Virus record (IMG/VR): IMGVR_UViG_3300031962_000001
Location: 1-64,000 of that record
Length of the DNA stretch: 64,000 nt
Reading direction: 5' to 3' (one strand)
From: a virus
Positions 35,459-63,839 of this stretch are shown here, in pieces (the first letter of the stretch is position 1; the number at the start of each line of letters is the position of its first letter). Made by a program: the position numbers and the translations under genes. The notes under the pieces are model-generated. The model made no database searches and was not told the DNA's origin. It saw only the letters and a list, made by a program, of their open reading frames with translations.

Positions 35459-36048
35459 TGACTAGGAAACAATTAGCAGCTTGCAGAAGAAACGCGAAAA
35501 TAGCGCACTCTCTTCCAAGAACCAAGAAACAATTAGAAGCGCTCAGGAGAAATTCTAAGATAGGCTGCGCTATGCCTAGAACTGAAAGGCAACTGAAGTC
35601 TCTAGCCAAAGCTAGAAAAGTGGGCCAGAAAGTGTTGAGCACTATGTCTAGGACTTGGTTGAAGGGAAAGAATAGGTATAAATATCCCAATAGGCTCAAA
35701 GCAGATCTCAAAAATATACAGATTGCCAACTCTCAACCTAAAACTGCAAAGCAACGTGCTACTTCTAGAGAGATGGTTAAGTATGCCCACGAAGGTTTGA
35801 AGAAGAGAAGAAAAGAGATCAATGGCATCTGTGAACTGTGCGGAGTTCCATGCTTCACTTATGGAGATCACTGTCATAAGACTGGAAAGAAGCGTGGAAA
35901 AGTCTGCCTCAGTTGCAACTTGGTTCTTGGAATGTTCAAAGACGATATAGGTCGATTCAAGAAGGCAATTAAATACCTTGAGAAATATAAAGTCTTGAGG
36001 TTTCCCAGACTGCCACAAAGATTTCCTAGATTGAAAGTGGCAGCATAG
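35455..36048 (+). CDS. Endonuclease VII-type HNH nuclease with N-terminal repeats
   Basis: Residues 1-70 hold three copies of a repeat of about 20 residues (TRKQLAACRRNAKIAHSLPR, KKQLEALRRNSKIGCAMPRT, ERQLKSLAKARKVGQ), resembling NUMOD-type DNA-binding modules. The C-terminal part has the recombination endonuclease VII core: CELCG and CLSCN zinc pairs, with GDHCHKTGKKRG carrying the catalytic His. It may be a homing nuclease inserted in the tail operon. The last 18 residues carry two RFPR motifs (LRFPRLPQRFPRLKVAA), part of a motif family described in the findings. Confidence 0.8.
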   Translation: MMTRKQLAACRRNAKIAHSLPRTKKQLEALRRNSKIGCAMPRTERQLKSLAKARKVGQKVLSTMSRTWLKGKNRYKYPNRLKADLKNIQIANSQPKTAKQRATSREMVKYAHEGLKKRRKEINGICELCGVPCFTYGDHCHKTGKKRGKVCLSCNLVLGMFKDDIGRFKKAIKYLEKYKVLRFPRLPQRFPRLKVAA

Positions 36049-36071
36049 ATTCTATAAAAGGGAGGAGCCCA

Positions 36072-36443
36072 ATGTGGCTTTCTAACTTTGAGAACGGCAC
36101 TTCCATCTCTTCCAAAAACGTATTCTGGACACAGTTGAAGGAAAGAAGCAATGGAGCCAAGATGACCGGGCTCCAGCTCACCAGTTCTCTGTTTCCAAAT
36201 CTGTTTCTGGAACTTTCTGATCTGGACCGATACTATTTCGTGACTGAAGCCAGTGCTTTCATAGCGGAAGGAGTATTTCGCAACGAAGTGCTGGCTGAAA
36301 TCATTGGTGGACACAATCTAGAACTGGGAATCGGTATTGAAATCCGGCTAGAGTACACGGGCAGCGCGAAGTCCAGAATCTACAAGCTTGAACGTTATAA
36401 GTATTCGAAGGATATCTTGGTAGAGGGTACTAGAAGGCACTAA
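36072..36443 (+). CDS. Unknown small tail-region protein
   Basis: This 123-residue protein has a ribosome site GGGAGGAG. It is a mixed alpha/beta sequence with hydrophobic segments LFPNLFLELSDLDRYYF and AEIIGGHNLELGIGIEIRLE. It lies between the endonuclease and the large fibre-type gene and shares its last base with the next start. It could be a small distal tail component; no family is recognised. Confidence 0.4.
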   Translation: MWLSNFENGTSISSKNVFWTQLKERSNGAKMTGLQLTSSLFPNLFLELSDLDRYYFVTEASAFIAEGVFRNEVLAEIIGGHNLELGIGIEIRLEYTGSAKSRIYKLERYKYSKDILVEGTRRH

Positions 36444-39400
36444 TGCCAGCGGTATATGTCAGCTCGAATGTCAGTGGAGTTTCTGCTACTACTAGCGGAA
36501 CGCTGAACTATGGAACGCTGGCTTCTGGGCAGACCATATTTCTGCAGATAGCTGCCTACGGTTCAGGAAACGTTCCAAGCTCTGTCACGGACGATAAGGG
36601 CAATACATACGTTCAGCTCTATACGCAGAATTTCTCCACTTCTTTCCTTGGCGGTCTTGGCGGAACGATAACTCTCTACTACGCCACCGTAAAGACAGCG
36701 GGAAATACGACCGTCACTGTAAACTTCGCAAGCTCCACGACTTGGGCAATGAACGCGATCTGGTACTTGGGGTTCAACACTACTCCATTCACGTTAGAAA
36801 CTTCAGCGTCTGCTGGCGGCACTGGCACTGCACCAAATTCTGGCGCGACTCCCTCGAACGCGACAGCTGGCGATCTGCTGCTCGGTCTTGGAATGACCGA
36901 TATCGCCATAGGAAATTTCTCAAACTTCTACTCAGCTCAGGGTGCTGGTTACAGTGGTTCCTTCAGCGATTCTTCAGGAAATAACGTAAGCAGTATACAA
37001 GAATTCCAGAACGCTGCTTCCACTACGACATATTCTGCGACGGCAACTCTTCAGAGCAGCGCAAATTGGGTGATGGCAGTCGTAGCGATCAAGCAGACGG
37101 CTTCAGTGCCTACGTTTGTGAGAGGCTACGGAACAGTCCACAGTGCTGGAGCTGGTTCTTTGGGATTGACCGGCGTCACGCTGTCCGTTGGCGATCTGGG
37201 CATCGTCTGCGTGAAATGGGTTGGCACACAGACCATCAGCACGGTCGCAGACAATCTTGGTGGCAACGTTTGGATAGCTGTTCCAAATTCCTATCAGACG
37301 GGAGCTGGAAATTTCAGCAGTCAGCTTTGGTATTGCGCCAAGATAGCCACTGGTGGAACAGCCACCATCACCGTCACTTGGTCTGCTACTACAGGGAGCA
37401 TGGATATAGGTGGAGCCGAATTCACGGCTTCCACTATAGACATATCCTCGTCTTCGCAGCTTGCCTCGTCTAACAATATCACCATATCTGCGACCCCTAC
37501 GAGTGCTAGCGAAATGCTCTACGCTTTCTTCGTAGGAGGAGCTAGTACTCCTAGCATTTTAGCTTCTGGATTCACCAGTGCCGGAGCGGCTGGCAGTTTC
37601 AGCACTCAGGGATACATGGCGGCAGGACCAACTGGGATATCTTATCCTGCGACCGCCACTCAAACCGCTCCTTCTCTTTTCTTTGCTGCGATAGTCGCTT
37701 TGGGACCGTCTTCTAACAGCAAGACCTGGAATACAGATTGCTACGTCTTTCCATTCTATAATTCCAAGAATTGGAACACAGATTGCTTCGTGACCGTTCC
37801 TCAGCGAAGCTGGAACGTAGACTGTTACGTCGCTAATCCGTCTGCTATCACTGTCGCTTTGACTTACGTCAGCCTAGCTGGTCAGATCCTCTTCAAGATT
37901 AACGTTCCTAATGGCTTTATTGGGTTGAAGGGAACACTCAATCAGCCGGTCCTGACGTACGTCGGACTCGCGGCTACGATAAAGACTCAGAAGCTCCCAG
38001 CCAGTTTTACAGGTCTGGCAGGTACGATCAAGATCAAGCCTACTCCAAGCTACACAAGCTTGAAGGGCACGATCAACAATCCTACGCTCAAATCGTGGAA
38101 CTCGGACTGCTTCGTTGTCGTTCCTGCCAGAATCTATGTTTCACTGGCTGGCACCATCGTACAGAAGCTGACGCCGACTGGTCCTCCTGTTCCTACTGGA
38201 GCGTTTCCAGATTCTTCTTACGTAGGATTGAGAGCTACGATTCTGAGTGGAGGGTCTGGTTCTATCCAGATGCCGGGTTCTGGATATACGACAGCAGACG
38301 ATTGGTATTCTTCTGTAGACGCTGGCGCTTCCTACAAGTCTGGCTCTGTATTCAATCTGTCCGGTGCTAATCTTCCCGCTGGTGGAATCAATCTAGTCGT
38401 GACGGCATTCACTGGCGGAGTAACGAGCTTCCAGACTCGCACGAGAAACTGGCTGCGCAGAGTAGACGCTGCGAATAGTGGCATCGTCACCAACACTCAG
38501 ACCAATGTGCATACTCTGCCGAATGGTGCCGTCATCACTACGACTACAGTCACTACGCAGAACAAGGACGTATTGACTACGACCGTGACGACTCAGAGCA
38601 GTGCGACGCCTACCAGAACCAGCACCGTCATCACTGAGAAGAGCGTCGGTGGCCAGACTACCGTCCGTGAAATAGACACTACGACTATAAACGGCATCGT
38701 GACGAATGTAGAAAAGAAAAACGTCTTTTCGGTGCCGCCGACGTATGACAATCCACAGCCACTGAAAGTCACGACGCTGGACGGCGTAATTCATTACCAG
38801 TTTTTCTCGGCCATCAACGCTGAATGGGCTGGCGGCGAGCAGGAAGGCGTAACGAATATCCAGACTCAGGTGCAGATAGTTCCCGGCACTTTGAACAATT
38901 CTACTACGGACGCCTTCGGCAATCCTATTCTGTCCAGAGTCACGACCAGCACTGCTACGACTCCAGATGGCAAGATCATTACTACCACTACGACAGAGAC
39001 TGGCAGTTCTACGGCGAAGGACTTTGGCACTACGACCGTAGACACGATCAATCAGTTCAATGGCGTCCAGAAGACCGTCGTTACCAAGACGACATATCCT
39101 GATGGGTCTGTGGTGACTAGCAACAAGACAACCAATTTGCTTACAGGTGATAGCACAGAAACAGACACCGAAACGGTCACCGACGAATATGGGCAGGTAA
39201 CGACGACTGTCACGTCTATCGACACCAAGACATTTGCAGACCCGACCACTGGCATCGAAAGACAGACAGTTACTAAGACGGTCGCCGTCACGAAAGGCGG
39301 AGTCACTACCATAGACACTACTGTCGTTACGAACAACGATTTCGAGGACAGTATCGTCAGCCAAAAGGTCAAGGTCTACTTCATCCAAGAGTTCACTATC

Positions 39401-39739
39401 ACTTGCGTTATAGACGAGCTTAACTTGACAGCTCTGTCGGAGCTGAATGTTACGTTGCAGAAAAACTATACGCTGCTGGAACTGTTCGGCCAGCAATTAG
39501 GCAATGCACAATTGAGCTGGCCTCTGAGGAACACTCTCATCAACCAGTTCAATCTGGCGAATTCCAGCATCACGCCGTTCAAGCTTCAGGCTCTCGGCAA
39601 AGTCTACAATGTCATATTCGCGCAGTCGGCTTCGGCGTTCAGGGCGAAATATATTCCTGGCACTGAGCCTCACGTCTATGAATTGCAGATGATTCTCCAA
39701 TCCAGAAGCGACATATCTACAGGAGCGTTTGGGTTCTAG
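36443..39739 (+). CDS. Large fibre-type protein with repeated modules (1098 aa)
   Basis: Residues 1-215 and about 220-430 are two copies of the beta domain also present in the 3.5-5.6 kb proteins (DDKGNTYVQLY and DNLGGNVWIAVP are equivalent landmarks). Next come four WN(T/V/S)DC(Y/F)V elements and several Y(V/T)(G/S)L(A/K)GTI elements. A Thr/Val-rich stretch of roughly 270 residues follows (TTTTVTTQ, QVTTTVTSIDTKT). A distinct C-terminal domain (FIQEFTITCVIDELNLTALS to the end) closes it. The mosaic suggests a tail fibre or tip protein. Confidence 0.6.
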   Translation: MPAVYVSSNVSGVSATTSGTLNYGTLASGQTIFLQIAAYGSGNVPSSVTDDKGNTYVQLYTQNFSTSFLGGLGGTITLYYATVKTAGNTTVTVNFASSTTWAMNAIWYLGFNTTPFTLETSASAGGTGTAPNSGATPSNATAGDLLLGLGMTDIAIGNFSNFYSAQGAGYSGSFSDSSGNNVSSIQEFQNAASTTTYSATATLQSSANWVMAVVAIKQTASVPTFVRGYGTVHSAGAGSLGLTGVTLSVGDLGIVCVKWVGTQTISTVADNLGGNVWIAVPNSYQTGAGNFSSQLWYCAKIATGGTATITVTWSATTGSMDIGGAEFTASTIDISSSSQLASSNNITISATPTSASEMLYAFFVGGASTPSILASGFTSAGAAGSFSTQGYMAAGPTGISYPATATQTAPSLFFAAIVALGPSSNSKTWNTDCYVFPFYNSKNWNTDCFVTVPQRSWNVDCYVANPSAITVALTYVSLAGQILFKINVPNGFIGLKGTLNQPVLTYVGLAATIKTQKLPASFTGLAGTIKIKPTPSYTSLKGTINNPTLKSWNSDCFVVVPARIYVSLAGTIVQKLTPTGPPVPTGAFPDSSYVGLRATILSGGSGSIQMPGSGYTTADDWYSSVDAGASYKSGSVFNLSGANLPAGGINLVVTAFTGGVTSFQTRTRNWLRRVDAANSGIVTNTQTNVHTLPNGAVITTTTVTTQNKDVLTTTVTTQSSATPTRTSTVITEKSVGGQTTVREIDTTTINGIVTNVEKKNVFSVPPTYDNPQPLKVTTLDGVIHYQFFSAINAEWAGGEQEGVTNIQTQVQIVPGTLNNSTTDAFGNPILSRVTTSTATTPDGKIITTTTTETGSSTAKDFGTTTVDTINQFNGVQKTVVTKTTYPDGSVVTSNKTTNLLTGDSTETDTETVTDEYGQVTTTVTSIDTKTFADPTTGIERQTVTKTVAVTKGGVTTIDTTVVTNNDFEDSIVSQKVKVYFIQEFTITCVIDELNLTALSELNVTLQKNYTLLELFGQQLGNAQLSWPLRNTLINQFNLANSSITPFKLQALGKVYNVIFAQSASAFRAKYIPGTEPHVYELQMILQSRSDISTGAFGF

Positions 39740-39740
39740 C

Positions 39741-41420
39741 ATGGGAACTGGATTCCAACCTGCCATCTTTTCAGCGGCATCAGAAAATATATTGCTATCC
39801 AGTCTGTCTTCTCTGATGCCGGGAAGCACTATCTTTACAGAAGCCAACGTAGTAGCCATGACGCTGTCCTATACCGCTACGGGAGGCAGCTTCTCTATTT
39901 CATTGCTGAAGGATACCATAGCGCCGTCAAAGATACTTGAAGACATGCTGATAGGACTGCCGTTCGGCAGAACAGGAATCGTCAAGTCTGTATCTAGTGG
40001 CTGGAGCACTGGTGGGATGGTGGATATCCTTTCTGGCCCAGCTCTCACCCTCAATGGCACTGCGCAGACGGCCGCTCAGACTCCTCCAGACGTGCCGAAC
40101 GTTGGCCCAGTTTACGTCTCTCTAGCTGTTCTTGCCAATCAGGTTCTGTATGGATATGGTGGTGGGGGTATAATCGGTGGCACTGGACTTGGATATGGCA
40201 ATGTCGTAGAATGGGCGATGCTGGTTCCGTTCATCAAGCACTTCGCGTTCAGAGGACAAGCTCTGGCTGGCTTGCAGCAAATCGCTTCGATCATGCTGGC
40301 AGACCTGATCGTCAGGAAAGACGGCTATCATTTCGTCAACGCTGGAGCCTATCCGAACGTCTCCAAGAAAATAACCATTTCACAGACAGACGTCATCAAT
40401 GCCAATCAAGCCATGGACTATTCTTCAGACGTGGCTTCCATACTTAATCCAACGCTGCTTCTCATCAACACTGGCCTCCCGCAACAATTCGTCTACGACT
40501 ACGTTCACGCGCAGAAGCAGCCAAAGTTCACGGTTTCTGCAGGAGCGCCCAGCACTCTAGGAGCTACGGATTTCATACCGATACCGGATGGTTGGCTTGT
40601 AGATGGCAATTACGAAGAATGGACTCCGGCTAATCCTAGCGATCTTACCAATCCTAATGCTAGCGTCACAAATGGTAGATACTGGAAACAGTTCCCTTCT
40701 CCCACCAATCCAAATATGATGAGAGGCATCACAAACTTCACGCGTCTGGTGAAGCAGATAGTGATACCAGGAAATGTGTCTTCTTTCATTGGCTCGCCAA
40801 TTACTGGATTGACCAAACAGGGAGGGCCATTTGAATTCGCTTTCAACGATTACACTTCGAACCAGGGGATCTATGGACTAGACTCTAGTAGCAGTGCGAC
40901 TGGCGTCACATTGTTTGACATCATAAGTCACCAGTTTCTTACGTTTCCAAATGCTATAGTGCTAATACCTCAGGGCGGTGGCACAAGCGGTGATGCGGCT
41001 TCTAGTTTCTACAGCATCACGATGGAACAGTGGACATTCCCGTTAGTGAACCCTCAAACTTTTACGCTTGGCACTCCACTGCCTCCTTCCAATGTCGCCA
41101 TCGTGACACCGAACTCCAATATCCAGAACGGGCAGAATGGATACTGGTTGTTGTATCTCTACAACTACCAAAAGCTCAATTCGCCGAGACTTAGAACATC
41201 GGTCGCCGCCGTCTACAGAAATACGCTGCCTGAAGTCGGAGATCATCTGTTCGTGAACGGTTTGACGTACGCAGATTGTGGCAGAATCCAGACAGTGAAC
41301 GTCAGCTTCTCCAGGACCGGCGGAGTGGTGCTCAACCTGACCGCTGAGCTCTATCAAGCCAAGAAAGGAAAATGGTCTCTCAGTCCTGGCGGAGCCGTAA
41401 TTGGCGGCGGATTGCCGTAG
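39741..41420 (+). CDS. Tail tip or hub protein candidate
   Basis: This 559-residue protein is read from the ATG just after the upstream TAG. It starts with FQPAIFSAASENILLSSLSS and has an early YTATGGSFSISLLKDTIAPS segment, then ILEDMLIGLPFGRTGIVKSV. The middle contains a helical FRGQALAGLQQIASIMLADL segment. The C-terminal region has RTSVAAVYRNTLPEVGDHLF and a final VVLNLTAELYQAKKGKW strand pattern. This resembles the gp27/gpD-like hub architecture of tail tips, but only loosely. Its order after the fibre gene and before two OB-like proteins supports a tip role. Confidence 0.45.
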   Translation: MGTGFQPAIFSAASENILLSSLSSLMPGSTIFTEANVVAMTLSYTATGGSFSISLLKDTIAPSKILEDMLIGLPFGRTGIVKSVSSGWSTGGMVDILSGPALTLNGTAQTAAQTPPDVPNVGPVYVSLAVLANQVLYGYGGGGIIGGTGLGYGNVVEWAMLVPFIKHFAFRGQALAGLQQIASIMLADLIVRKDGYHFVNAGAYPNVSKKITISQTDVINANQAMDYSSDVASILNPTLLLINTGLPQQFVYDYVHAQKQPKFTVSAGAPSTLGATDFIPIPDGWLVDGNYEEWTPANPSDLTNPNASVTNGRYWKQFPSPTNPNMMRGITNFTRLVKQIVIPGNVSSFIGSPITGLTKQGGPFEFAFNDYTSNQGIYGLDSSSSATGVTLFDIISHQFLTFPNAIVLIPQGGGTSGDAASSFYSITMEQWTFPLVNPQTFTLGTPLPPSNVAIVTPNSNIQNGQNGYWLLYLYNYQKLNSPRLRTSVAAVYRNTLPEVGDHLFVNGLTYADCGRIQTVNVSFSRTGGVVLNLTAELYQAKKGKWSLSPGGAVIGGGLP

Positions 41421-41429
41421 GAGGAAGAC

Positions 41430-41687
41430 ATGCCAGAAGGAAGCCCATTGCGTCTAGCGCTCAAACAGCTTATCCAAGAAGTACTAGACGAGAACTCAAC
41501 TCAAACTACCGGAGACTTGCAGCCAACGCAAGGAACTGTAATCAACATCAACGACGATGGTACGGTGGATGTCCAAGCATCAGATCAGACATTTTATGGA
41601 GTTGGCTATCCAGACCCGAATGTGGTGATCGGCACGATAGTCATAGTCGTGACTGGTGACGGAGTGACGGCGGCGATACCACAATGA
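41430..41687 (+). CDS. Small OB-like tail tip protein
   Basis: This 85-residue protein has the pattern GTVININDDGTVDVQASDQT, YPDPNVVIGTIVIVVTGDG, as in short beta-barrel (OB-like) tip proteins. The N-terminus of the next gene repeats the plan (LRxxxKxLI, then VISLNDDGTV, PVVIGQNVILVNDGQG), so the two are paralogous over about 80 residues. They may assemble together at the tail tip. The next gene begins four bases before this one ends. Confidence 0.5.
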   Translation: MPEGSPLRLALKQLIQEVLDENSTQTTGDLQPTQGTVININDDGTVDVQASDQTFYGVGYPDPNVVIGTIVIVVTGDGVTAAIPQ

Positions 41688-43438: not shown

Positions 43439-43447
43439 GGAGGCAGT

Positions 43448-44072: not shown

Positions 44073-44399
44073 ATGCTAGAAAACAGGGAAGTTCCAATCA
44101 GCAAGCTGACCACTGGGCAGGACTTCACGCTCGTGCTGAACGCCACTAGCAAAAGACGCATCAAAGGCCGATTAGTAGACCTCAGCTCTTGCAGCGCCAC
44201 AGTGATTCTGGACAATACTCTCAGTGAAAAGCTTCACTGGTCTACCAACAAGAGGCTTCACTGGTCCGTGAATACTCCCGTGATTCCTGGCAATAACATC
44301 AGAAAGAGATTCCCCAGAACTCCTGAGCGGTTCCCACGATCTCCGGTTTACAGATATCCGAGACTGCGAAAAGGCGAAGTGATGAGGTATCCACGATGA
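44073..44399 (+). CDS. Small protein with four R[F/Y]PR motifs
   Basis: This 108-residue protein has an N-terminal part resembling a small beta barrel (DFTLVLNATSKRRIKGRLVD, SATVILDNTL), then a basic tail containing RFPR twice and RYPR twice at 44307-44318, 44328-44339, 44352-44363 and 44385-44396. It is the densest carrier of this motif in the window. It is the first gene of the replication block, preceded by the conserved leader, and overlaps the helicase by four bases. Function unknown; nucleic acid binding is possible. Confidence 0.6.
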   Translation: MLENREVPISKLTTGQDFTLVLNATSKRRIKGRLVDLSSCSATVILDNTLSEKLHWSTNKRLHWSVNTPVIPGNNIRKRFPRTPERFPRSPVYRYPRLRKGEVMRYPR

Positions 44400-46816: not shown

Positions 46817-47467
46817 ATGCGTCGTCGCAGAAGAAAAAAGCCGCGTCGGTTTCCTAGACTCGATGTTCCGCTAGAGCTTAGGCACTACGAAAGAATCTTG
46901 AGAAGTGTATACAACGAGTTAGCAATCAGACGCGACAAGCGGAAAATGTTTTTCCAGTTCGATGTTTACAGGACTAAGAGAGCTGGCAGAGCGGCAATCG
47001 CGTTTCTGGATTTGGCAAAGCTCCTCAAGAATCACAATATCGATCCTGGCTTGTATTTGAAAATCATGTGCAGATATGGCAAGTACAAAGAATCCACGTG
47101 GATGCCAAGTCCAGTGTGGCTTGCTAAAAAATCTACGCTGGAAAATTTCAAATGGGTCTATCGTAGGGAAGAGAGAAGTTATCCTTTGCATCTGCAATTC
47201 AAAAAGGAAATTTCTGGCTGGAGTATTTTCGACATCTACGCTTCGGTTAGAGATTCTGCAAGCATGTATCGGGACGCAGTCGAAAAAGTCGGGCTGCATC
47301 CGGACATGGCGACGGTTATGCTCAAGAAAGATCTGAGTCCATGGTTCATGGCAACGTCGCTTCTGATTTCTAAGGACAGCAAAGATTTCCTAGAATGCCT
47401 AGACCTGCTACGTAAAAACAAGAAGCTAAAAAAACTTGTGTTCAAGGCGTACAAGAAATCTTTCTAG
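46817..47467 (+). CDS. Unknown basic protein with one RFPR motif
   Basis: This 216-residue protein begins MRRRRRKKPRRFPRLDVPLE, so the RFPR motif (46847-46858) lies in an extremely basic leader. The rest is helical, with aromatic segments such as IDPGLYLKIMCRYGKYKEST and WFMATSLLISKDSKDFLECL, and ends in a lysine-rich tail. It precedes the replicative helicase gene. Nucleic acid binding is a reasonable inference; no family is recognised. Confidence 0.5.
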   Translation: MRRRRRKKPRRFPRLDVPLELRHYERILRSVYNELAIRRDKRKMFFQFDVYRTKRAGRAAIAFLDLAKLLKNHNIDPGLYLKIMCRYGKYKESTWMPSPVWLAKKSTLENFKWVYRREERSYPLHLQFKKEISGWSIFDIYASVRDSASMYRDAVEKVGLHPDMATVMLKKDLSPWFMATSLLISKDSKDFLECLDLLRKNKKLKKLVFKAYKKSF

Positions 47468-51102: not shown

Positions 51103-52533
51103 ATGAGAACCAAAGAAGAATGGCTTGAGAACCTGATGTGCTGCGAAGGCTGCAAAGTGTTGGGCGAAGGCAAAGTCGGTTGCTTCTGGAAGAAACAGCA
51201 TTGTCCGTTGTGTGGCAAGGCTACTTCGAAATTCAAGAAGCTGAACGGCAAGAAGGGCGAGAAAATCCTTCGCTTCCCCCGCGAGGCTAGCACGGCAACG
51301 AAACAGCAAGTGGCGATCATGAAACAGATCAACGACCGCTGCCGCGACTTCGATTGCCCGGGAAAAGTGGTGGACGTTATCACTGGTCCCGTGGTTACCG
51401 AATACGTTTTCGAGCCTGACCGGTTCACCCGCGTCAAGAAGCTGAAGGGCCTGAACGAGGAACTTTCGCTGACACTGAGCAAGCCGGAACTCGGCATCGG
51501 CTCTGTGGAAACCGTCACCATCCGCCGCATCGCAGGCAGAGCAGCCATCGGCATCTCAGTGCCGAATCCAGACCGTAAGATGGTCAGCTTCAAGGATTGC
51601 CTGAAAAATGTCATCGCACATCGAGACGACATGGAATTGCCGCTCAACATGGGCGTCACTTCCACGGGCGAACCTTATGTGGAGGACCTCGCCACGATGC
51701 CGCATCTGCTTATCGGTGGTAGCACTGGCACTGGCAAGTCGGTATACCTTAATGCTTTGCTGACCAGCTTGCTCTATATCCGCTCGCCGAAGCAACTCTG
51801 GCTCTACATGATCGACCCGAAATCTGTGGAGCTCTTTCCATACAAAGGTCTGCCGCACCTCAAGCGCGACCCGGTCAACGATGTGTACGAGGCGCTCAGC
51901 GTCATGGACACGATCGAACAGGAAATGCGCCGTCGCACTAACAACCTCCACATCAACAAAGCTAAGGATATCAAGGAACTCAACACGCGCATCAAGGGCG
52001 AGGTTGCCGAGCTCAGAAAGCAAGGCAAGGAAGAGGAAGCCAAGAAGCGCGAAGCCGATCTCTGGCCCTACATTATATTGGTCATCGATGAGATGGCTGA
52101 TCTGGTGCTGGCAGAGAAGAAAATGTTCACCCAGAAGCTGGCGTGCATTTCCCAGATGGCTCGCGCCGCTGGCATCTGCATCATCAGCGCAACCCAGCGT
52201 CCGTCTGTGGACGTGCTGCCGGGAAAAATCAAGGTGAACTTCCCCGCTCGCGTCTGCTTCCGCGTGCCTAGCGCCGTGGATGGCAAGACGGTGCTGAACT
52301 ACAAGGGAGCGGAAACGCTGCTGGGCAAGGGCGACTGCTTTTTGGTGTCGCCTAACAAGGCTGGTCTCCAGCGCATCCACGTCCCCTACTGCACTCCGGC
52401 CGATCGCGACGAAATGCTGAAAATCTCGCTGGAATTCGGGCACGTCCTGAAAGTCCCGGCGGATTCTATGGAAGTCGCCGCTCCGGTCGTGGAGAAGAAA
52501 AACGGCAAGCCTGCCTCCAAGCTGGTCAACTAG
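51103..52533 (+). CDS. FtsK/SpoIIIE-like DNA translocase with zinc-finger leader
   Basis: This 476-residue protein has a Cys-rich leader (C13, C14, C17, C27, C34, C37) and an LRFPRE motif at residues 57-60. The FtsK alpha domain follows at about 88-170 (ITGPVVTEYVFEPD, AIGISVPNPDRKMVSFKD). The motor has Walker A GGSTGTGKS at 205-213 and Walker B YIILVIDEMADL near 323-334, then ICIISATQRPSVDVLPGKIK. It has no membrane segments and lacks the C-terminal winged-helix gamma domain that reads KOPS. Its codons end in G or C much more often than those of surrounding genes, suggesting separate origin. It probably pumps DNA in the infected cell. Confidence 0.85.
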   Translation: MRTKEEWLENLMCCEGCKVLGEGKVGCFWKKQHCPLCGKATSKFKKLNGKKGEKILRFPREASTATKQQVAIMKQINDRCRDFDCPGKVVDVITGPVVTEYVFEPDRFTRVKKLKGLNEELSLTLSKPELGIGSVETVTIRRIAGRAAIGISVPNPDRKMVSFKDCLKNVIAHRDDMELPLNMGVTSTGEPYVEDLATMPHLLIGGSTGTGKSVYLNALLTSLLYIRSPKQLWLYMIDPKSVELFPYKGLPHLKRDPVNDVYEALSVMDTIEQEMRRRTNNLHINKAKDIKELNTRIKGEVAELRKQGKEEEAKKREADLWPYIILVIDEMADLVLAEKKMFTQKLACISQMARAAGICIISATQRPSVDVLPGKIKVNFPARVCFRVPSAVDGKTVLNYKGAETLLGKGDCFLVSPNKAGLQRIHVPYCTPADRDEMLKISLEFGHVLKVPADSMEVAAPVVEKKNGKPASKLVN

Positions 52534-54932: not shown

Positions 54933-54952
54933 TCGAATCCAAAAGCAGCGAG

Positions 54953-54983
54953 CGGGGACTCGAAAGGGTCCCCGTTTATATTT
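54953..54983 (+). terminator. Rho-independent terminator
   Basis: CGGGGAC at 54953-54959 pairs with GTCCCCG at 54968-54974, followed by TTTATATTT. Confidence 0.75.
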
Positions 54984-54999
54984 CAAAAGGAGCAATCGA

Positions 55000-56498: not shown

Positions 56499-56592
56499 GT
56501 GTCCGAAATGCAACGAACCCGCACCGCTGGAACTCAACACCTACCAGAAGTGGCGCTGGCTCTCCGTCCACGAAGTGATGTGCAGAGGATGA
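56440..56592 (+). CDS. Small zinc-type reading overlapping the HTH gene (start unclear)
   Basis: In the +1 frame relative to the HTH gene, codons from about 56440 encode FQNYFTVRRAGRGWGLSIKC followed by PKCNEPAPLEL and WLSVHEVMC, which looks like a genuine zinc-binding domain. No ATG or GTG with a ribosome site lies nearby. The nearest ATG (56290) would add low-complexity sequence. Frameshifting from the HTH frame or a non-standard start is possible. Boundaries are approximate. Confidence 0.35.
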   Translation, partial: GFQNYFTVRRAGRGWGLSIKCPKCNEPAPLELNTYQKWRWLSVHEVMCRG

Positions 56593-56593
56593 A

Positions 56594-57319
56594 ATGGCCA
56601 TCCACACTCCAGTAGATAGTCCCATCTTTGGAGGACGCGTCTGGGGCCAGTCCAAGGACCGCAAGGCCCAACGACTGGCCGCAGCCAGGAAGAACAAGGA
56701 GTTCCGGCAGGAGAAGGCGTATCGCACAAGATACAAGGGAGCCAAAAATGATGTAGAGGCTGCCAACCTTTTCCTGCTTCTTGGCATCAACTATTTCAGC
56801 ACGCCGAAAGAACAGCTTGCCGCTATCGTGCGCGAGAAGTTCGAAGGAAAGAGAGCCGACGCCATCAATGTCAAAGCGATGGATTTCCTGACAGACAACT
56901 TTGATGCTCTGGTGGAGCTCAAAGATGGATTTCCACCACTGATAAGGTTCCGTCCGGCAGAGCCGGAGAAGGAAGAGGAGACACGACCCATGAAACTGTA
57001 TTCCCAGCTAGCAGAACGTTCCGGTCAGACACGTAGGGTAGTCAGAGAAGTGTACGAGGCACTGGTCTTGGAGGCACGCAAGGCTCTGAGAACAGAACGC
57101 CTTTTCAAGCTGCCCGATCTAGGCAGACTGAAGATATCGTACAGACCACCGAAGGAAAAGCGGAGGGGCATCAACCCTTTCACTGGCAAGAAGCAGTGGT
57201 TCAAGTACAAACCCGCATCAAACAAACTGCGCTTCGCACCGGCGAAGGTTCTGAAAGTCTTCGTCGCCGAGAAGGTGGAGGTTGTAGCACCGAAGAAAAA
57301 GAAAAAGCACAAGAAGTAG
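56594..57319 (+). CDS. HU-like DNA-binding protein with N-terminal extension
   Basis: This is a 241-residue protein. Residues 133-228 follow the HU/IHF pattern: MKLYSQLAERSGQTRRVVRE, then FKLPDLGRLKISYRPPKEKR, then GINPFTGKKQWFKYKPASNK. These give the two helices, the saddle, and the beta arm with the conserved NP-TG. The tail is lysine-rich. The first 130 residues are a basic, helical extension with no known family. ATG codon 133 (56990) has GAGGAG nine bases upstream and could start a free HU form. The protein probably bends or compacts phage DNA. Confidence 0.75.
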   Translation: MAIHTPVDSPIFGGRVWGQSKDRKAQRLAAARKNKEFRQEKAYRTRYKGAKNDVEAANLFLLLGINYFSTPKEQLAAIVREKFEGKRADAINVKAMDFLTDNFDALVELKDGFPPLIRFRPAEPEKEEETRPMKLYSQLAERSGQTRRVVREVYEALVLEARKALRTERLFKLPDLGRLKISYRPPKEKRRGINPFTGKKQWFKYKPASNKLRFAPAKVLKVFVAEKVEVVAPKKKKKHKK

Positions 57320-57332
57320 AAGGGAGGTTTGG

Positions 57333-58061
57333 ATGTCCTATTGTAGGCAGTGTGCAAATCCAGATCTGAAGGGTATGCACACTTGTGAAAAAAGAAGAAA
57401 GAGAGGCACGATGGAACCGCAAGTACAGGTGATCACGAGAGAAGCACGCAAAGCACTGATCCAAGAATTGCCGCGAGCGGTGCCGGAGTTCGAAGAGCCG
57501 ACGCCGGAGTCTGAGAAGATAGCGAAGAAGGCCAGCAGAGTCCTTGGCTACCGAGGCTTGCTGACTTTCAACGCTGGAGGCAAACTCCAAGCCATTCTGG
57601 AGAGCCTTGAAATCGAAGTCATCGACCCGAAGGCTGTGTTCGAATATCAGTCCAAATTCGGGAGAGCGACCTACAATAAACCAGTCATCTTCGTAGAAGA
57701 GGCTATTCAAGACGATGATGAAGATGACGAAGAAGAGGAAGATGATGACGACGAGGAGCCGGTCCGTAGCAGTCATGGACGGTACTTTTGGAATCGAGTT
57801 CCGATCAAAGAGTACCATAAGGCTATCCCAGAGTTCGTAGTTAGCAAGGCTATCCAAGTCAAGGAAGCCCTGCCAGAAGTGCAGGTCTTCGTTGAGGAAC
57901 TGCAATACGACCCTGACCCGTTCTTGGTTGTGACCTGCAAGAACGACAATTTCATTGAGCAGTATTACATCGAAGTCTGGGAGGAGCCTCAGTTCGAAGG
58001 GCGATTCCTGGGCCAGCCGACCAAGCAAGAGCGCAATCTGTCGAAGAAGCACAAAGGCTGA
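57333..58061 (+). CDS. Unknown protein with CxxC leader and acidic block
   Basis: This 242-residue protein begins MSYCRQCANPDLKGMHTC, a CxxC...C site that may bind zinc. A helical region follows (ARKALIQELPRAVPEFEEPT), then an Asp/Glu-only block of about 20 residues (128-146), then an alpha/beta C-terminus (ALPEVQVFVEELQYDPDPFL). No family is recognised. Tandem hairpins after it probably end the operon. Confidence 0.5.
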   Translation: MSYCRQCANPDLKGMHTCEKRRKRGTMEPQVQVITREARKALIQELPRAVPEFEEPTPESEKIAKKASRVLGYRGLLTFNAGGKLQAILESLEIEVIDPKAVFEYQSKFGRATYNKPVIFVEEAIQDDDEDDEEEEDDDDEEPVRSSHGRYFWNRVPIKEYHKAIPEFVVSKAIQVKEALPEVQVFVEELQYDPDPFLVVTCKNDNFIEQYYIEVWEEPQFEGRFLGQPTKQERNLSKKHKG

Positions 58062-58068
58062 AATTGTT

Positions 58069-58163
58069 CCAGACTGGAGCTCACTTGGCGCGGTAGAGGA
58101 AGGCTCCAGTCTGGGCAATAGGGCGGGAGTAGAAGGTATGCGGCCCCCTGCTCCCGCTCATTT
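58069..58163 (+). terminator. Tandem intergenic hairpins, probable terminator
   Basis: CCAGACTGGAGC (58069-58080) pairs perfectly with GCTCCAGTCTGG (58103-58114). GCGGGAG (58123-58129) pairs with CTCCCGC (58151-58157), followed by TCATTTTA. The second looks like a weak intrinsic terminator. The conserved leader follows at 58174. Confidence 0.6.
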
Positions 58164-58173
58164 TATCTCACAA

Positions 58174-58203
58174 TCGTGTTTCATATAGGTAAGGAGGAAG
58201 AAA
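58174..58203 (+). promoter_or_regulatory. Conserved leader TCGTGTTTCATA, copy 3
   Basis: TCGTGTTTCATATAGGTAAGG lies 30 bases before the ATG at 58204 and right after the tandem terminator hairpins. This arrangement suggests that the element includes a promoter. Confidence 0.6.
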
Positions 58204-58443
58204 ATGGAGCTATCCGTAGGAGATGTGAAAACCATGTTCGTAGATCGTTGGAGGTCCACTCTGAAAGGAGCAAACGAGCAGACCGAAAATGTTTTGCTCC
58301 ACGAAGTTTCTGATGAACATAAGCAGAATCTTCGGGAGATCGTGATTCTTCAGAAAGAGGCTCTACTAAGACTCCAGATGCTGGAAACCGCTCTTGGGAA
58401 TTTTGGAGAAGCGATTTCAGGGCTGATGGAACTTACCGAATAG
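58204..58443 (+). CDS. Small helical protein
   Basis: This 79-residue protein is almost entirely helical (VKTMFVDRWRSTLKGANEQT, QNLREIVILQKEALLRLQML). It has AAGGAGGAAG as ribosome site and is the first gene after the third conserved leader. Function unknown. Confidence 0.55.
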   Translation: MELSVGDVKTMFVDRWRSTLKGANEQTENVLLHEVSDEHKQNLREIVILQKEALLRLQMLETALGNFGEAISGLMELTE

Positions 58444-58451
58444 GAGCTAGC

Positions 58452-59306
58452 GTGGACCCACAATACGGCAAGATGAACATAATCCCCGGCATCACCGTCG
58501 TGGTGGATACTGTAACTGGCAGGTCTGCAAGAGTCGAGAAGATTCTGCCGAGCGGCGTCCAAGTAACTGTTAGGCAGCGAGGATACGAGCTAGAAAATTG
58601 GCAATGGAGTTGGCTTACAGTCCGTCAGCCGCGTCTAGTCAAACGCTATCCACGCCCGTTCCGATTCCCAAGGGAGGAAAAGACCGAATGCTGCCATTGT
58701 AAAATTGGTAAGATGGAGGCGCAACTTGAAAAAACGAAAGTCGAAGAAGGCTGGATCGAAACATGGATCGTCTGGTGTCTCAGATGCAAGCAACCAATCG
58801 GTACGGAAAGTTTTCCTAGACGTATCGAGAGAGCCTACGAGCTTGTACGCAAAGCTCGTAATGCAAAACCCAAACGCGAAGTTCATAAAGCAGTATCGCG
58901 ACGAGCAAGGAAAGTTTCACGTCATCACAAAAGTTCCGTCAAAGCACGGAGAAAGAGTACGAGTAAACTGGGTATTCGACCCACAAGGAGCAGCAATGCG
59001 CAAGCGAGCAATCGAAAGACAGTCAGGAAGGCCAAGCTCAAAACATCTAAGGTTCCCGCGAGAAGCCGTCAAAAGATTTCCACGGCTCGCCATCAGGAGG
59101 TTTCCAAGACTCGCCAAAAAGGGGTGAAACGTGTACGACATAGCGCGAGCCCTGAAAAAGTTCCGACAACTGATAAGGTGGACATCGTGGCGAGCGTCCC
59201 GCAACCCGATACTCCGGCAGACGTTCGAGGATCTGGAAGCGGAGGGGCTTCTAACGCTAGTGAAGTGTTGTCGGGAGTTCCCGGAGGGACAGACAAGGTT
59301 CACTAG
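58452..59306 (+). CDS. Zinc-ribbon protein with RFPR motifs and long overlapping C-terminal reading
   Basis: This is a 284-residue reading. Residues 1-65 look like a small beta barrel (GITVVVDTVTGRSARVEKIL, WQWSWLTVRQPR). RYPR and RFPR follow at 58644-58655 and 58662-58673. A zinc ribbon (CCHC and CLRC) comes next. From about residue 135 the sequence becomes Lys/Arg/Ser-rich and overlaps, in another frame, a small RFPR protein and the start of the sigma-like gene. No stop interrupts this frame, so the C-terminal part may be translated, but its composition may simply mirror the basic codons of the other frame. Confidence 0.5.
   Translation: MDPQYGKMNIIPGITVVVDTVTGRSARVEKILPSGVQVTVRQRGYELENWQWSWLTVRQPRLVKRYPRPFRFPREEKTECCHCKIGKMEAQLEKTKVEEGWIETWIVWCLRCKQPIGTESFPRRIERAYELVRKARNAKPKREVHKAVSRRARKVSRHHKSSVKARRKSTSKLGIRPTRSSNAQASNRKTVRKAKLKTSKVPARSRQKISTARHQEVSKTRQKGVKRVRHSASPEKVPTTDKVDIVASVPQPDTPADVRGSGSGGASNASEVLSGVPGGTDKVH
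58861..59127 (+). CDS. Nested small basic protein with three RFPR motifs
   Basis: This reading lies entirely within the preceding gene in the +1 frame. From the ATG at 58861 it has 88 residues (MQNPNAKFIKQYRDEQGKFH, RVRVNWVFDPQGAAMRKRA), then RFPR at 59050-59061, 59074-59085 and 59098-59109. A TTG at 58846, preceded by GAGAG, is an alternative start. Protein-like hydrophobic spacing and the RFPR motifs support it. It ends four bases before the sigma-like gene. Confidence 0.55.
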   Translation: MQNPNAKFIKQYRDEQGKFHVITKVPSKHGERVRVNWVFDPQGAAMRKRAIERQSGRPSSKHLRFPREAVKRFPRLAIRRFPRLAKKG

Positions 59307-59727
59307 ATATTTCAAACGCTCTTGGTACAATCACCTGAAAAGATTGTACCGAGATGGCTATGCTCTGAAACGACGCGGCATTGAAGTCGAGCTAGAAAAA
59401 GCCGAAAGCATAGCGCCTGCCGAGGACGATTTCCTAGAACGGATGCAATCTCGCTATGACGAGATACAACCATTCCTTTCACAAGACGCCAGACGGCTTC
59501 TGGAGAGCTTGCTGTCTACAGAGCCGGAACCTATGGCAATAGAATATGCGTGGCGAGAGTTCTGTCGCAAGAGCAAACTACGCTCGCTAGAAATTCCAGT
59601 AACAGGTGGAAAAAAGTTCCGTGTTCGTATTCGCCACGTCCGACGTGCGCTGGGCTTGACGACCAAACGGATGCGCGAAGTAGTCAAGGAAATAAAGTCT
59701 GTAAGCAGATCACACAGGAGGAAGTAG
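59131..59727 (+). CDS. Sigma70-region-2-like protein
   Basis: This 198-residue protein (GTG start) contains FEDLEAEGLLTLVKCCREFP followed by TRFTRYFKRSWYNHLKRLYR. This matches the DLxQEGxxGLxxAxxxFxxxxxxxFxxYxxxxIRxxIxRxxR block of sigma70 region 2. A C-terminal ALGLTTKRMREVVKEIKSVS segment could be a helix-turn-helix. Region 2 binds core polymerase and the -10 element, so this may be a phage sigma factor directing late genes. The usual extended region 4 is not obvious. Confidence 0.65.
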   Translation: MYDIARALKKFRQLIRWTSWRASRNPILRQTFEDLEAEGLLTLVKCCREFPEGQTRFTRYFKRSWYNHLKRLYRDGYALKRRGIEVELEKAESIAPAEDDFLERMQSRYDEIQPFLSQDARRLLESLLSTEPEPMAIEYAWREFCRKSKLRSLEIPVTGGKKFRVRIRHVRRALGLTTKRMREVVKEIKSVSRSHRRK

Positions 59728-61077
59728 ATGGCTAAGAAGAAAACAGGCAAGAAAAAGAGCAGAAAGGGCAAGAAGGGCAAGTCGCGTGACGAGGAAGAAG
59801 ATGAGGACGAAGAGGAGGTAGACGAGTCAGACGAGGAAGAGTCTGACGATGAGGAAGAGGACGACGAAGACGACAAGCCATCCAAAAAGAAGAAGCACAA
59901 AAAGTCCTCTGACGAAGATGAAGAGGACGAAGAAGAGTCTGAGGATGAGGAAGAGTCCAGCGACGATGAGGAAGAGGACTCTGACGACGATGAGGAAGAA
60001 GACGAGGACGAGGAACCTAAGAAAAAGAAGAAACACAAAAAGTCCTCTGACGAAGATGAAGATGAAGATGAAGAGGACGAAGAAGAGTCCGATGACGAGG
60101 AAGATGAAGACGAGGATGACGAGCCCAAGAAGAAAAAGAAAAAGGGCAAGAAATCCTCAGACGACGATGACGACGAGGAAGACGAAGACGAGTCCGAGGA
60201 CGAGGAAGATGAGGAAGAGTCCGAGGACGACGATGACGATGATGATGACGAACCTCCCAAGAAAAAGAAAAAGTCCAAGAAGTCAGAAGATGACGACGAG
60301 GACGAGGAAGAGGAGGAAGACGAGGACGAGGAAGAGTCTGACGATGATGATGATGAGGAAGAGGATGACGATGAGGAGGACTCCGCAAAGGGGTCCTCTT
60401 CCAAGCTCGTCCAGATCGATCCAAATAAGTATCAGCCCAAACAACCAAAAACCCCGATCCCTCCGGGCATAGAAGATTGCTTCGGCAAGTATTATGGGCC
60501 TCTGTCGGGAGAACCTGACGCCCCAGAGTGCAAGCGTTGCGTCGAAGCGAAGAACTGTGCGGCTGTAATGAAAGCCAACAGAGAAGACGAAGAAAAGGAA
60601 GGTAAAAAGAAGATGAAAAAGCACGGGAAGAAGCGGCACGCAAGAGAGGAAGAGGAAGAAGAGGTGAAGGTGTCCAAGAAAAAGAAGGGCAAGAAGCACC
60701 GTCGCGAGGAAGAAGAGGAAGAGGAAGAAAAGAAGTCCTCGAAGAAGGTGAAGGGCCTTGCTCCGGCTGTCAAGTCGATCTTGGACAAGTCCAAATACAA
60801 GAAGTACGATGGCGATCTGGTCAAGAGCGCGGAGAACAAGTACGTCGTCAAAATTCACGATGTGAAAGCTGTCCGTATCACACGGGCGAATCGCGAAGAT
60901 GGTGCTCAGTTCCGTCTGCTTTGCAAAAAGGAGCCGAAGAAATATGGACTGCGCTCTAGCGACTGGAAGAAGGCTGGCGCCGGTAAGTACGACTTCCAGG
61001 GAGAGCAGAAGGCTCTTCCGAAGAAGCTGCGTATTTTCTTCAAGAAGTTTGCGGCCGAGCACAAGGAAGCAGCGTAG
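59728..61077 (+). CDS. Charge-block polyampholyte with folded C-terminus (Nopp140-like layout)
   Basis: This is a 449-residue protein. Residues 1-230 alternate long Asp/Glu/Ser blocks (SDEDEEDEEESEDEE type) with short lysine blocks (KPSKKKKHKKSS, EPKKKKKHKKSS, EPPKKKKKSKKS) four to five times. A Cys-containing central segment follows (CFGKYYGPL, CKRCVEAKNC). More KKKK and EEEE blocks come next. A C-terminal folded domain (about 350-449, VKIHDVKAVRITRANREDGA) closes it. Such alternating blocks are typical of eukaryotic nucleolar proteins and of condensate-forming chains. It could buffer basic DNA-binding proteins or form a phage compartment. Function unknown. Confidence 0.6.
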   Translation: MAKKKTGKKKSRKGKKGKSRDEEEDEDEEEVDESDEEESDDEEEDDEDDKPSKKKKHKKSSDEDEEDEEESEDEEESSDDEEEDSDDDEEEDEDEEPKKKKKHKKSSDEDEDEDEEDEEESDDEEDEDEDDEPKKKKKKGKKSSDDDDDEEDEDESEDEEDEEESEDDDDDDDDEPPKKKKKSKKSEDDDEDEEEEEDEDEEESDDDDDEEEDDDEEDSAKGSSSKLVQIDPNKYQPKQPKTPIPPGIEDCFGKYYGPLSGEPDAPECKRCVEAKNCAAVMKANREDEEKEGKKKMKKHGKKRHAREEEEEEVKVSKKKKGKKHRREEEEEEEEKKSSKKVKGLAPAVKSILDKSKYKKYDGDLVKSAENKYVVKIHDVKAVRITRANREDGAQFRLLCKKEPKKYGLRSSDWKKAGAGKYDFQGEQKALPKKLRIFFKKFAAEHKEAA

Positions 61078-61100
61078 CAGTTCCACAACAACTCTAACTG

Positions 61101-61135
61101 GAGGGGCCTTTCACCGTGAGGCCCCTCTTTCTTTT
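61101..61135 (+). terminator. Rho-independent terminator
   Basis: GAGGGGCCT at 61101-61109 pairs with AGGCCCCTC at 61119-61127, followed by TTTCTTTT. It ends the replication and small-gene block after the polyampholyte gene. Confidence 0.85.
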
Positions 61136-61143
61136 GAGGCGAA

Positions 61144-62451
61144 ATGAAAAAGATAGCAGTGGTGATGTTCGACGCTGGGCACATAGGAGGAGTTCTGCCA
61201 TACAATCTGGATCTGACCTATGGTCTGAGAGAAGCTGGCTACGAAGCAGACCTGATATTCGCTGTTCCCAAGGAGCAGCCTGACAAGGCGCATGGAGCAA
61301 AGGCTGGTTTGGGGCTGCGCATACATATATCGAAGTCTGGAGGAAGGCTGTTCTCAGAAAATGCTATCCCGTATATCGGGAAGAAAAATTCTGGTGAGCT
61401 CAAGGAAAAGCTCCAAGAATACGACGGCGTAGTCCTGTCCAAGGTTCCCAGTTGGAAAAGAGGTCACAACGATGACCAGGATTGGTTGAAGGCTTTACAG
61501 CATGGCAAGCCTATGGTGTGTATCGTGCATGACACGCTATGGCTGCGTTCCTACCCGTGGATACTTTCGCTGCGGGACAAAATCACATACTATGTCGCTG
61601 TACATCCGGCGGCATTTTCAATGGCGAAGCTGATTCCTGGTAGAATTTGCTGTATCGTGAATCCATTTGACATTTCTAAGTCTCAGAAGACCTACGAAAA
61701 GGACTGGAACGCGCTGGCTTCTACAGCGTTCTTCAGACAGTGGAAACATAACGAGGATGGCATTAGGGCAGTCCCATACATGAAACCTGTCCATCTCTTT
61801 CAGACTGGAGCAGGTATAGAACTGAGCTATATGAGGGCCGAACTGAAAAGCAAAGATAAATACAGTGGTAGTTCCTACGCTAACTATCGCAAGAAGATAA
61901 TGCAGTATCGTTGGAAGAAAAGCGACTACTCTTACAGAGAGAAGTGGGATGGTAAGAGAATATTCGATGTCGCAAAGAAGACTGGGCGATTCCATTATAT
62001 GGGTGTCGTGCCTCCAGAGGAACTGTACAATCTCAAAGCTGGATGCGGTGGCTCTGTAGATTGGTCCTATCATTCGTGGGGAGAATATTTCAACAGAGTT
62101 ACAGTAGAGGCTATGATCTACCACTGTTTGCCATTTGCCAGACCGACAGGTATAGCAGGCAACGAAACGGGGGAAGGGCTGGTCTTTGGACCTGAAAATG
62201 TAGTCCTTATCAGAGAAGGCTTGTCTCCAAAGAAAACTGGCGAGTTGATCGTAAGCTCTATGCATGACAAGGCGCTTAGGAAGGAAATGATTACTAGGAA
62301 TCTGAAGAAGATCGAGATGTTTGACAGGAAAGTGGTGGCGGAACAGATTGTGAGAGCTTTGAAAGGGAAGGAAAAAGTTGGACTGCTGGAGACGATGACG
62401 GGAAAATCTAATAAAAAAGTCAGAAGCTATATGGAGGACTTCGGAGAATGA
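61144..62451 (+). CDS. Glycosyltransferase-like protein, paralogue A
   Basis: This 435-residue protein has a GT-B-like start (KIAVVMFDAGHIGGVLPYNL), a middle GKPMVCIVHDTLWLRSYPW segment and a C-terminal block with SWGEYFNRVTVEAMIYHCLP, which resembles the donor-site Glu motif (E-x7-E) of GT4-type transferases. The gene downstream has the same layout. It follows a terminator. It is likely part of another glycan pathway or adds to the 18-28 kb cassette. Confidence 0.65.
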   Translation: MKKIAVVMFDAGHIGGVLPYNLDLTYGLREAGYEADLIFAVPKEQPDKAHGAKAGLGLRIHISKSGGRLFSENAIPYIGKKNSGELKEKLQEYDGVVLSKVPSWKRGHNDDQDWLKALQHGKPMVCIVHDTLWLRSYPWILSLRDKITYYVAVHPAAFSMAKLIPGRICCIVNPFDISKSQKTYEKDWNALASTAFFRQWKHNEDGIRAVPYMKPVHLFQTGAGIELSYMRAELKSKDKYSGSSYANYRKKIMQYRWKKSDYSYREKWDGKRIFDVAKKTGRFHYMGVVPPEELYNLKAGCGGSVDWSYHSWGEYFNRVTVEAMIYHCLPFARPTGIAGNETGEGLVFGPENVVLIREGLSPKKTGELIVSSMHDKALRKEMITRNLKKIEMFDRKVVAEQIVRALKGKEKVGLLETMTGKSNKKVRSYMEDFGE

Positions 62452-63839
62452 AAAGAATCGCCGTCCTCCTGTTCGAAGTGTTCAACAACCTCGGCGGCAT
62501 CCTACCGTCTACATACCATACCTGCAAAGGTCTGGAAGAGGCAGGTTACGAACCGTTCATATTCCATGCGGAATGGAAAGACCGGAAATACGACCGGCCA
62601 GAAGGCAGCTATAAAAACGTGGGGTTTGGACTACGCACTAGCACGAGCAAGGGACTAGAGCGTATACGCATGTTTGCCAGCCCTAAGCATACTTTCCTGT
62701 ACCGTGGGCGATCGTGCGCCAGGGACCTCCGGGACGCCCTTAGCGAGTATGATGGCGTTATACTTAGCAGTTCCATACCGTCTATTGCGGCAAAGAAGAT
62801 GGGTGGCAACAACGACTGGAAAATAGTGCTTCAGCACGGCAAGCCGATGATAGGCATGGTGAGAGACTGTCACTGGAGCCGTCTGTCGCCACACATATTT
62901 CCATACAGACATCTGTTTCAGGCTTTCGTGGGAGTACACCCAGCCGCGTTCAACTCGCTGAAAAACATGCCATGGAAAATTGCCTGTCAGCCGAATCCGC
63001 ATGACACTTCCCTGTATGGTAGGGAATACGAAAAGAACTGGGAGGAAGTCTGCATCACGTCGTGGTTCAAACAGTGGAAGCATATCGACGATGCTCTCAG
63101 AGCAGTACCGTATATGAAGCCAATCCGTTTGCGGATAGCTGGTGGTGGCATCGAGCATTCCTATATGGAAGCTGCTAAGAAGAATCCAGATAGGCCGCGT
63201 GAGGATTTCAACTTGGAATCGACGTACCGTTCTTGGCAAAACAAAATGAGATTCTATTCGTGGAAGGAAAACGACAAGAGCGTCAGGGACAAGTGGATTG
63301 GTAAAAGTATCTGGGAAGTAGCGGAGCGCTCCGGAAATTTTACGTACGAAGGATTCCTGTTGCAAGGCAGACAGCTTGACGATCTTCAATCGGAATGTGG
63401 AGGCCTGTTTGATCCTTCCTACCATTACGACTGGGGAGAGCATTTCAATCGCACGATGATAGAGGCCATCCTGCATCATAGCATTCCGTTCATGAGGCCA
63501 TATGGCATCTCAGACAACGCGGAAGGCCAAGGCAAGATATTTGGACCTGACAATGCTGTCATGATTCCTGAGACGGCTTCTCCAAAAAGGATAGGCGAGA
63601 TAATCCGCTCGTCGATGAACGATAGAAAACTTAAGAGAGACCTGAAGGCGGCGAACGCTGAGAAGGTTCAAATGTTCAACAGGACGTATGTGGCTAGACA
63701 GTATATAAAATTATTGGAGGGAAAGGAGGCAGGTCTGTTCGGCATACAGGAGGGAAAGCTCGATGAGAAGACACTGTTCAGGCTGAATAAGCTAGGTCTC
63801 ATCAGGAGGTTCCCCAGAACATTCAGATTCCCGAGGTGA
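62448..63839 (+). CDS. Glycosyltransferase-like protein, paralogue B, with RFPR tail
   Basis: This 463-residue protein is a paralogue of the preceding gene (LLFEVFNNLGGILPSTYHTC; GKPMIGMVRDCHWSRLSPH; DWGEHFNRTMIEAILHHSIP). It differs by a C-terminal extension of about 25 residues ending LGLIRRFPRTFRFPR, with RFPR at 63807-63818 and 63825-63836. The upstream paralogue lacks this tail and ends in SYMEDFGE. The overlap with the upstream stop is four bases. The added motif suggests that the tail is a separable tag. Confidence 0.65.
   Translation: MKRIAVLLFEVFNNLGGILPSTYHTCKGLEEAGYEPFIFHAEWKDRKYDRPEGSYKNVGFGLRTSTSKGLERIRMFASPKHTFLYRGRSCARDLRDALSEYDGVILSSSIPSIAAKKMGGNNDWKIVLQHGKPMIGMVRDCHWSRLSPHIFPYRHLFQAFVGVHPAAFNSLKNMPWKIACQPNPHDTSLYGREYEKNWEEVCITSWFKQWKHIDDALRAVPYMKPIRLRIAGGGIEHSYMEAAKKNPDRPREDFNLESTYRSWQNKMRFYSWKENDKSVRDKWIGKSIWEVAERSGNFTYEGFLLQGRQLDDLQSECGGLFDPSYHYDWGEHFNRTMIEAILHHSIPFMRPYGISDNAEGQGKIFGPDNAVMIPETASPKRIGEIIRSSMNDRKLKRDLKAANAEKVQMFNRTYVARQYIKLLEGKEAGLFGIQEGKLDEKTLFRLNKLGLIRRFPRTFRFPR

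Follow-up and report, generated by a model that had tools for sequence, protein, structure and literature searches.

The virus record IMGVR_UViG_3300031962_000001 of IMG/VR raises the question of why a single tetrapeptide, RFPR or RYPR, recurs in otherwise unrelated proteins of one phage. The window analyzed here comprises the first 64,000 bases of this 92,914-base record. An initial annotation had placed 15 copies in seven proteins of the window, and a six-frame scan recovered all 15 at the named genes and in the named reading frames; the other matches in the window number four, at 47383 and 59427 on the + strand and at 30293 and 47706 on the − strand, all outside plausible genes. The remainder of the record adds eight genic copies, bringing the total to 23 copies in 13 proteins. 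Over the whole record, the + strand holds 25 matches, two of them non-genic, and the − strand holds three. The tetrapeptide is enriched, selected at the peptide level, conserved and gained by unrelated proteins; its frame bias, free codon use, conservation amid variable flanks, presence in unrelated proteins and absence from outgroups speak for a functional tag. The initial annotation had proposed a shared tag for localisation, nucleic-acid binding or docking; a functional tag is supported, and sequence cannot choose among the three roles. We favor, with a probability of roughly 60%, a transferable docking motif that would gather DNA-acting enzymes on one partner at the phage DNA.

Relatives were gathered by searching IMG/VR for large terminase, RecA and FtsK-like proteins, yielding a clade sample of ten related phage records of at most 104 kb, with 777 predicted proteins in 437 families. 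The gene caller misses 3 of the 23 copies of the record (46847, 58644 and 58662) and some small tagged open reading frames (ORFs), so that clade counts are lower bounds. A further RecA match, G012 (29% identity), lacks the tag and was excluded from these counts; it also clustered with the portal family, presumably a false link that probably arose through inteins. Without it, the tag is present in 10/10 RecA proteins (11 family members clustered) and 6/7 portal proteins (8 members clustered).

Counted against shuffled sequences, as the initial annotation had proposed, the called genes of the record hold 20 copies against a mean of 0.39 (500 shuffles, maximum 3). The ten clade records hold 95 copies of RFPR/RYPR in 75/777 proteins and 30/437 families, compared with 3.3 on average and never more than 7 after shuffling inside 20-residue blocks; for these residues arranged in any of their eleven other orders, the counts run from 0 to 18. 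Among the first six genomes, RFPR tops all 4-mers by number of proteins (55 proteins, 67 copies, 0.96 expected). The motif thus recurs above chance in non-homologous proteins, as short linear motifs do. Stretches of three annotated control phages contained 0, 0 and 1 copies in 46,610 residues, and 71 outgroup loci (365,957 residues) contained one copy against 3.5 expected, locus L159 being excluded because its genes could not be called. The polymerase-search loci L070, L075 and L076 hold no tag, their polymerase matches lying near the locus end with the RecA gene probably outside. For FtsK-like homologues in viral contigs (n = 79), the tag was present, in the linker ahead of the FtsK domain, in 9/9 with at least 45% identity and in 0/70 that were more distant (Fisher p 5e-12), where the nine include near-duplicate records (such as L082/L089 and L084/L085) and so represent fewer independent cases, and where the distant alignments mostly begin after the tag position. 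The tag is confined to one phage clade.

The reading frame of the copies bears on what is being selected. The first six genomes hold 72 copies in the coding frame, and in each genome the count in any one of the other frames is 0 to 4. Across the ten records, both Arg positions draw on all six Arg codons, the Phe position on its two codons and the Pro position on all four. Codon use and frame bias thus agree with the earlier claim that codons vary freely and that the peptide, rather than the DNA, is under selection. A translated DNA or RNA element, or a product of base composition, would fit the similar DNA of some copies and a few out-of-frame matches; the element was rejected on codon freedom and frame bias, and chance or composition on the shuffles, frame controls and outgroup counts, leaving this explanation with almost no credibility.

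RFPR is the usual form and RYPR is rare; forms with W, A or H occur now and then. The near variants RRWPR, RFAR and HYPR occupy the termini of further proteins encoded by the thymidine-hypermodification cassette described below. Lys swaps are rare, with 0 instances of K[FYW]PR and 6 of R[FYW]PK against 95 of R[FY]PR in the ten records. As to placement, 76/95 copies lie within 30 residues of a protein end, zones that account for 28% of residues, and the description of copies at termini or in basic linkers, often in tandem, holds. In a model of the small terminase, the one tagged protein modelled, stretches 1–12 and 14–17 have a predicted local distance difference test score (pLDDT) under 50; they cover most of both tags and precede helices, consistent with the disordered end or linker in which short linear motifs reside. 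The terminal and linker positions would also suit a protease cleavage or degradation signal. Such a signal does not readily account for tandem copies or for a protein tagged at each terminus, and the head proteins have a separate candidate protease code, RLRE[ASG], the virion block being without RFPR; this reading seems very improbable.

Conservation among relatives, a further check suggested at the outset, came out in favor of the tag. The tag keeps the same place in RecA, the small terminase and the FtsK-like motor, and is less regular in the metallopeptidase (6/9) and in HMUDK_hel (4/8). In RecA, the four tag residues are invariant in 10/10 genomes and the adjoining leader columns vary; in the small terminase, the tag is invariant in 7/7 within a variable leader, the window phage having an extra inserted copy. 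The motif is thus conserved amid drifting flanks and subject to gain and loss, as is usual for short linear motifs.

The carriers of recognized type are an endonuclease VII-type nuclease, an FtsK-like motor, RecA, the small terminase, portal, a metallopeptidase and, in one genome, a RusA-like resolvase. Tagged enzymes of the thymidine-hypermodification cassette comprise HMUDK_hel (PF18723) and P-loop kinases, PF18748 (three at or above the Pfam cut-off, one below), together with a radical SAM protein and a PIG-L-like protein with weak Pfam matches. A PADLOC run on five tagged proteins gave no match. Since the tagged cassette enzymes vary from phage to phage, the tag was most likely gained repeatedly and independently on non-homologous proteins.

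All tagged genes of the window lie on the + strand. The endonuclease VII-type gene (35455–36048; PF02945, E = 2.3e-13) has two C-terminal tags (35998–36009 and 36019–36030), and its homologue in G006 is also tagged. A small protein (44073–44399) ends in four tags (44307, 44328, 44352 and 44385), with two C-terminal tags in the G004 homologue. Directly upstream of a DnaB-like helicase gene, a protein of unknown function (46817–47467) bears an N-terminal tag (46847–46858), as do three homologues; this tag requires the ATG at 46817, the gene caller having picked 46946. The tag of the FtsK-like motor (51103–52533; PF01580 and PF17854) is located at 51271–51282, in the linker preceding the FtsK alpha domain. 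A protein that contains Cys pairs and has a tail rich in K/R (58452–59306) is tagged at 58644 and 58662, and its homologues contain a KRYPRPxRF[PA]R block in G001, G006 and G011 and a variant of it in G005. Overlapping its basic tail in another frame, an ORF (58726–59127) starting at TTG 58726 (after GGAGG) or ATG 58861 carries three C-terminal tags (59050, 59074 and 59098), and tblastn showed that this nested ORF is kept in G001, G005, G006 and G011 with tandem RFPR. Glycosyltransferase-like gene B (62448–63839), named from a Pfam match of E = 0.08 and from reading of the sequences, has two C-terminal tags (63807 and 63825); its paralogue (61144–62451) is untagged, as first noted, and tagged glycosyltransferase-like proteins occur in G000, G011 and G009.

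Beyond the window, the record encodes an HMUDK_hel protein (record 64189–65142; PF18723) with a C-terminal tag at 65128, a RecA-like protein with an N-terminal tag at 71430, a 75-residue protein tagged at both ends (73426 and 73624), a PhageMetallopep protein with a C-terminal tag at 74095, a small terminase with two N-terminal tags (80699 and 80723) and a portal-like protein with a C-terminal tag at 88419; the RecA-like and portal-like proteins were named from sequence and homologues. A thymidylate synthase homologue (record 65170–66249) adjoins the HMUDK_hel gene. The gene content suggests hypermodified phage DNA based on 5-hydroxymethyldeoxyuridine (5-hydroxymethyl-dU). The metallopeptidase gene is preceded by a short ORF that bears the tag in 8/8 genomes read. 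The bodies of this ORF are of two unrelated kinds, by our own reading of the sequence a helical one and one containing Cys pairs; the ninth metallopeptidase genome, G011, falls outside these eight, presumably owing to a short flank, and its neighbouring 112-residue ORF is tagged.

Other families lack the tag. None of the 121 proteins of the head and tail block families carries it, nor do the polymerase (0/10), single-stranded DNA-binding protein (SSB, 0/10), UvsY-like (0/10), exonuclease (0/9) and SbcCD-like (0/8 each) families, the large terminase (0/7) or thymidylate synthase (0/8). Thymidylate synthase works on nucleotides, and the tagged modification enzymes act on DNA. A protein with an HU-like DNA-binding domain (56594–57319, + strand; PF00216, E = 1.8e-11) is likewise untagged (0/5 family members).

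These distributions bear on the main alternative, in which the tag would bind nucleic acid, reading for instance the minor groove or a modified base, and would raise the affinity of its carriers for DNA. Tagged proteins of known role mostly act on DNA, the motif is basic, often tandem and set in basic surroundings, and the phage has genes for 5-hydroxymethyl-dU hypermodification (PF18723 and thymidylate synthase). However, the motif does not replace Arg by Lys and hardly varies its Phe and Pro, a stringency not usually seen in simple DNA-binding tails, and the DNA-binding SSB, the HU-like protein, the polymerase and the helicases are all untagged. The core of the AT-hook is Gly-Arg-Pro, and no such core is present in the motif or its flank profile. 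We consider direct nucleic-acid binding unlikely, though worth keeping in view.

Targeting to a host factor or to a phage replication compartment, with a host protein or import channel as the reader, would account for one tag common to many functions, and simple address tags do act as cellular targeting signals. The polymerase and helicase would also need import, yet they are untagged, and the records here are of at most 104 kb. In addition, the accessible part of a report on PicA describes import without a conserved signal sequence and with a folded recognition surface (PMC11087766). Such targeting appears improbable.

In the docking scheme that we favor, RFPR would serve as a short docking motif on flexible ends or linkers, through which unrelated enzymes would bind one common partner located on phage DNA. 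Proteins of recombination, DNA hypermodification, translocation and packaging would thereby be gathered at the phage DNA, and the range of functions among the carriers accords with recruitment to DNA. We infer that the tag binds a protein, that this partner is common to all tagged proteins and that it is phage-encoded.

The foremost candidate partner is a gp32-like SSB (record 70261–71241, outside the window). It has no match to a Pfam or PHROG model; its AlphaFold model (mean pLDDT 63.7) matches the T4/RB69 gp32 core (Foldseek E 1.4e-7), and its C-terminal tail is net-negative in 10/10 genomes, with a net charge of −10 to −63. The protein thus combines a gp32-like fold with an acidic C-terminal tail similar to the domain through which T4 gp32 recruits its clients. 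In the accessible parts of the sources, the T4 gp32 acidic C-terminal domain is described as binding UvsX and UvsY (PMC3016280), gp32 as recruiting several proteins in T4 (PMC11551737) and the phage SSB tail as mediating binding of the Sak4 recombinase in HK620 (PMC5928155). Among the counterparts of gp32 clients, RecA/UvsX-like proteins are tagged in 10/10, UvsY-like proteins in 0/10 and the endonuclease VII-type protein in G000 and G006. Close to its end, the SSB acidic tail shows a recurrent short DLEKxYKxMKK-like pattern in the ten genomes, which is predicted to be helical in the window phage.

An acidic/Lys repeat protein with a four-Cys domain (59728–61077, + strand), untagged (0/8 family members) and with EDCFG and the Cys positions invariant in 6/6, is a second candidate partner, and the HU-like protein is a weaker one. 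The SSB tail and the acidic protein are D/E/K-rich in most phages and D/S-rich in G001 and G006. Concerted evolution of the two tails was considered and rejected, a Spearman test on six genomes being not significant.

Several observations weigh against docking on such a hub. The polymerase, helicase and primase are untagged, as are the relatives of the T4 gp32 client UvsY (0/10), and some tagged proteins have no recognized DNA role. Retention in the metallopeptidase and HMUDK_hel families is incomplete, as given above, with degenerate ends in the remaining HMUDK_hel proteins. The SSB tails are of low complexity and range from D/E/K-rich to D/S-rich; the strictness of the tag, by contrast, points to a folded pocket as the reader. 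The SSB was not recovered from 32 outgroup records in a search lacking a positive control, and sequence analysis found no partner. The partner may also be a host protein; for the host, a large-terminase search of bacterial genomes returned no relative and a polymerase search distant relatives only (24–32% identity).

Comparison with known systems would place the tag among docking motifs, in general already a known kind. The gp32-like fold and acidic tail encoded here resemble the T4 hub; in contrast, no client-side tetrapeptide common to unrelated proteins is reported in the accessible parts of the T4 sources (PMC3016280, PMC11551737). The UvsY, polymerase and helicase of this clade are also untagged. 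The bacterial clamp-binding motif and the SSB C-terminal peptide are short docking motifs in flexible regions of unrelated replication and DNA proteins. RFPR is like them in being short, in its flexible location, in its unrelated DNA proteins and in its easy gain and loss, and unlike them in sequence and in spanning recombination, base modification and packaging in one virus clade; it does not match the QL[SD]LF-like clamp-binding consensus. The nuclear import of Chimalliviridae (PicA) is comparable as a phage system that chooses a protein set for a DNA compartment, but its cargo is described, in the part of the source available, as having no linear signal (PMC11087766), whereas RFPR is linear and the records are of at most 104 kb. 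In the open-licence literature searched, no comparable phage tag was found, that is, one motif on unrelated DNA proteins with independent gain.

If the tag is an address label, it would provide a handle for finding phage proteins that cooperate on DNA, including those of unknown function, and a minimal peptide that could be transferred to enzymes to recruit them to phage DNA. It would also contrast with nucleus-forming phages, for which the accessible part of the source reports no linear signal (PMC11087766). Seeking 4-mers common to many unrelated proteins of one virus could expose other viral docking codes. More speculatively, and with no great confidence, RFPR alone might suffice to bring any enzyme into an assembly made by the phage, possibly a condensate, which the acidic-tailed SSB and the acidic four-Cys protein would scaffold on the hypermodified DNA; new modification or repair genes would join by growing a tag.

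Other features of these phages were noted. A protein at record 82866–84350 has R, STS and ExE-like stretches similar to those of Arg ADP-ribosyltransferases; it gave no ADP-ribosyltransferase match in Pfam. A second shared motif, RLRE[ASG], is often found in head and portal proteins, RLRE occurring in 38 copies against 2.9 expected in six genomes. It lies within 10706–11686, 12400–13107, 14198–16408, 16951–18021 and 20704–21636 in the window and within record 85294–88457, and also in homologues from G004, G006 and other genomes. RLRE[ASG] is similar to the site cut by the T4 prohead protease, (L/I)xE↓(A/S/G), and may be a cleavage code of capsid maturation. The portal genes of G001, G002, G004 and G006 contain large insertions at differing places that appear intein-like.

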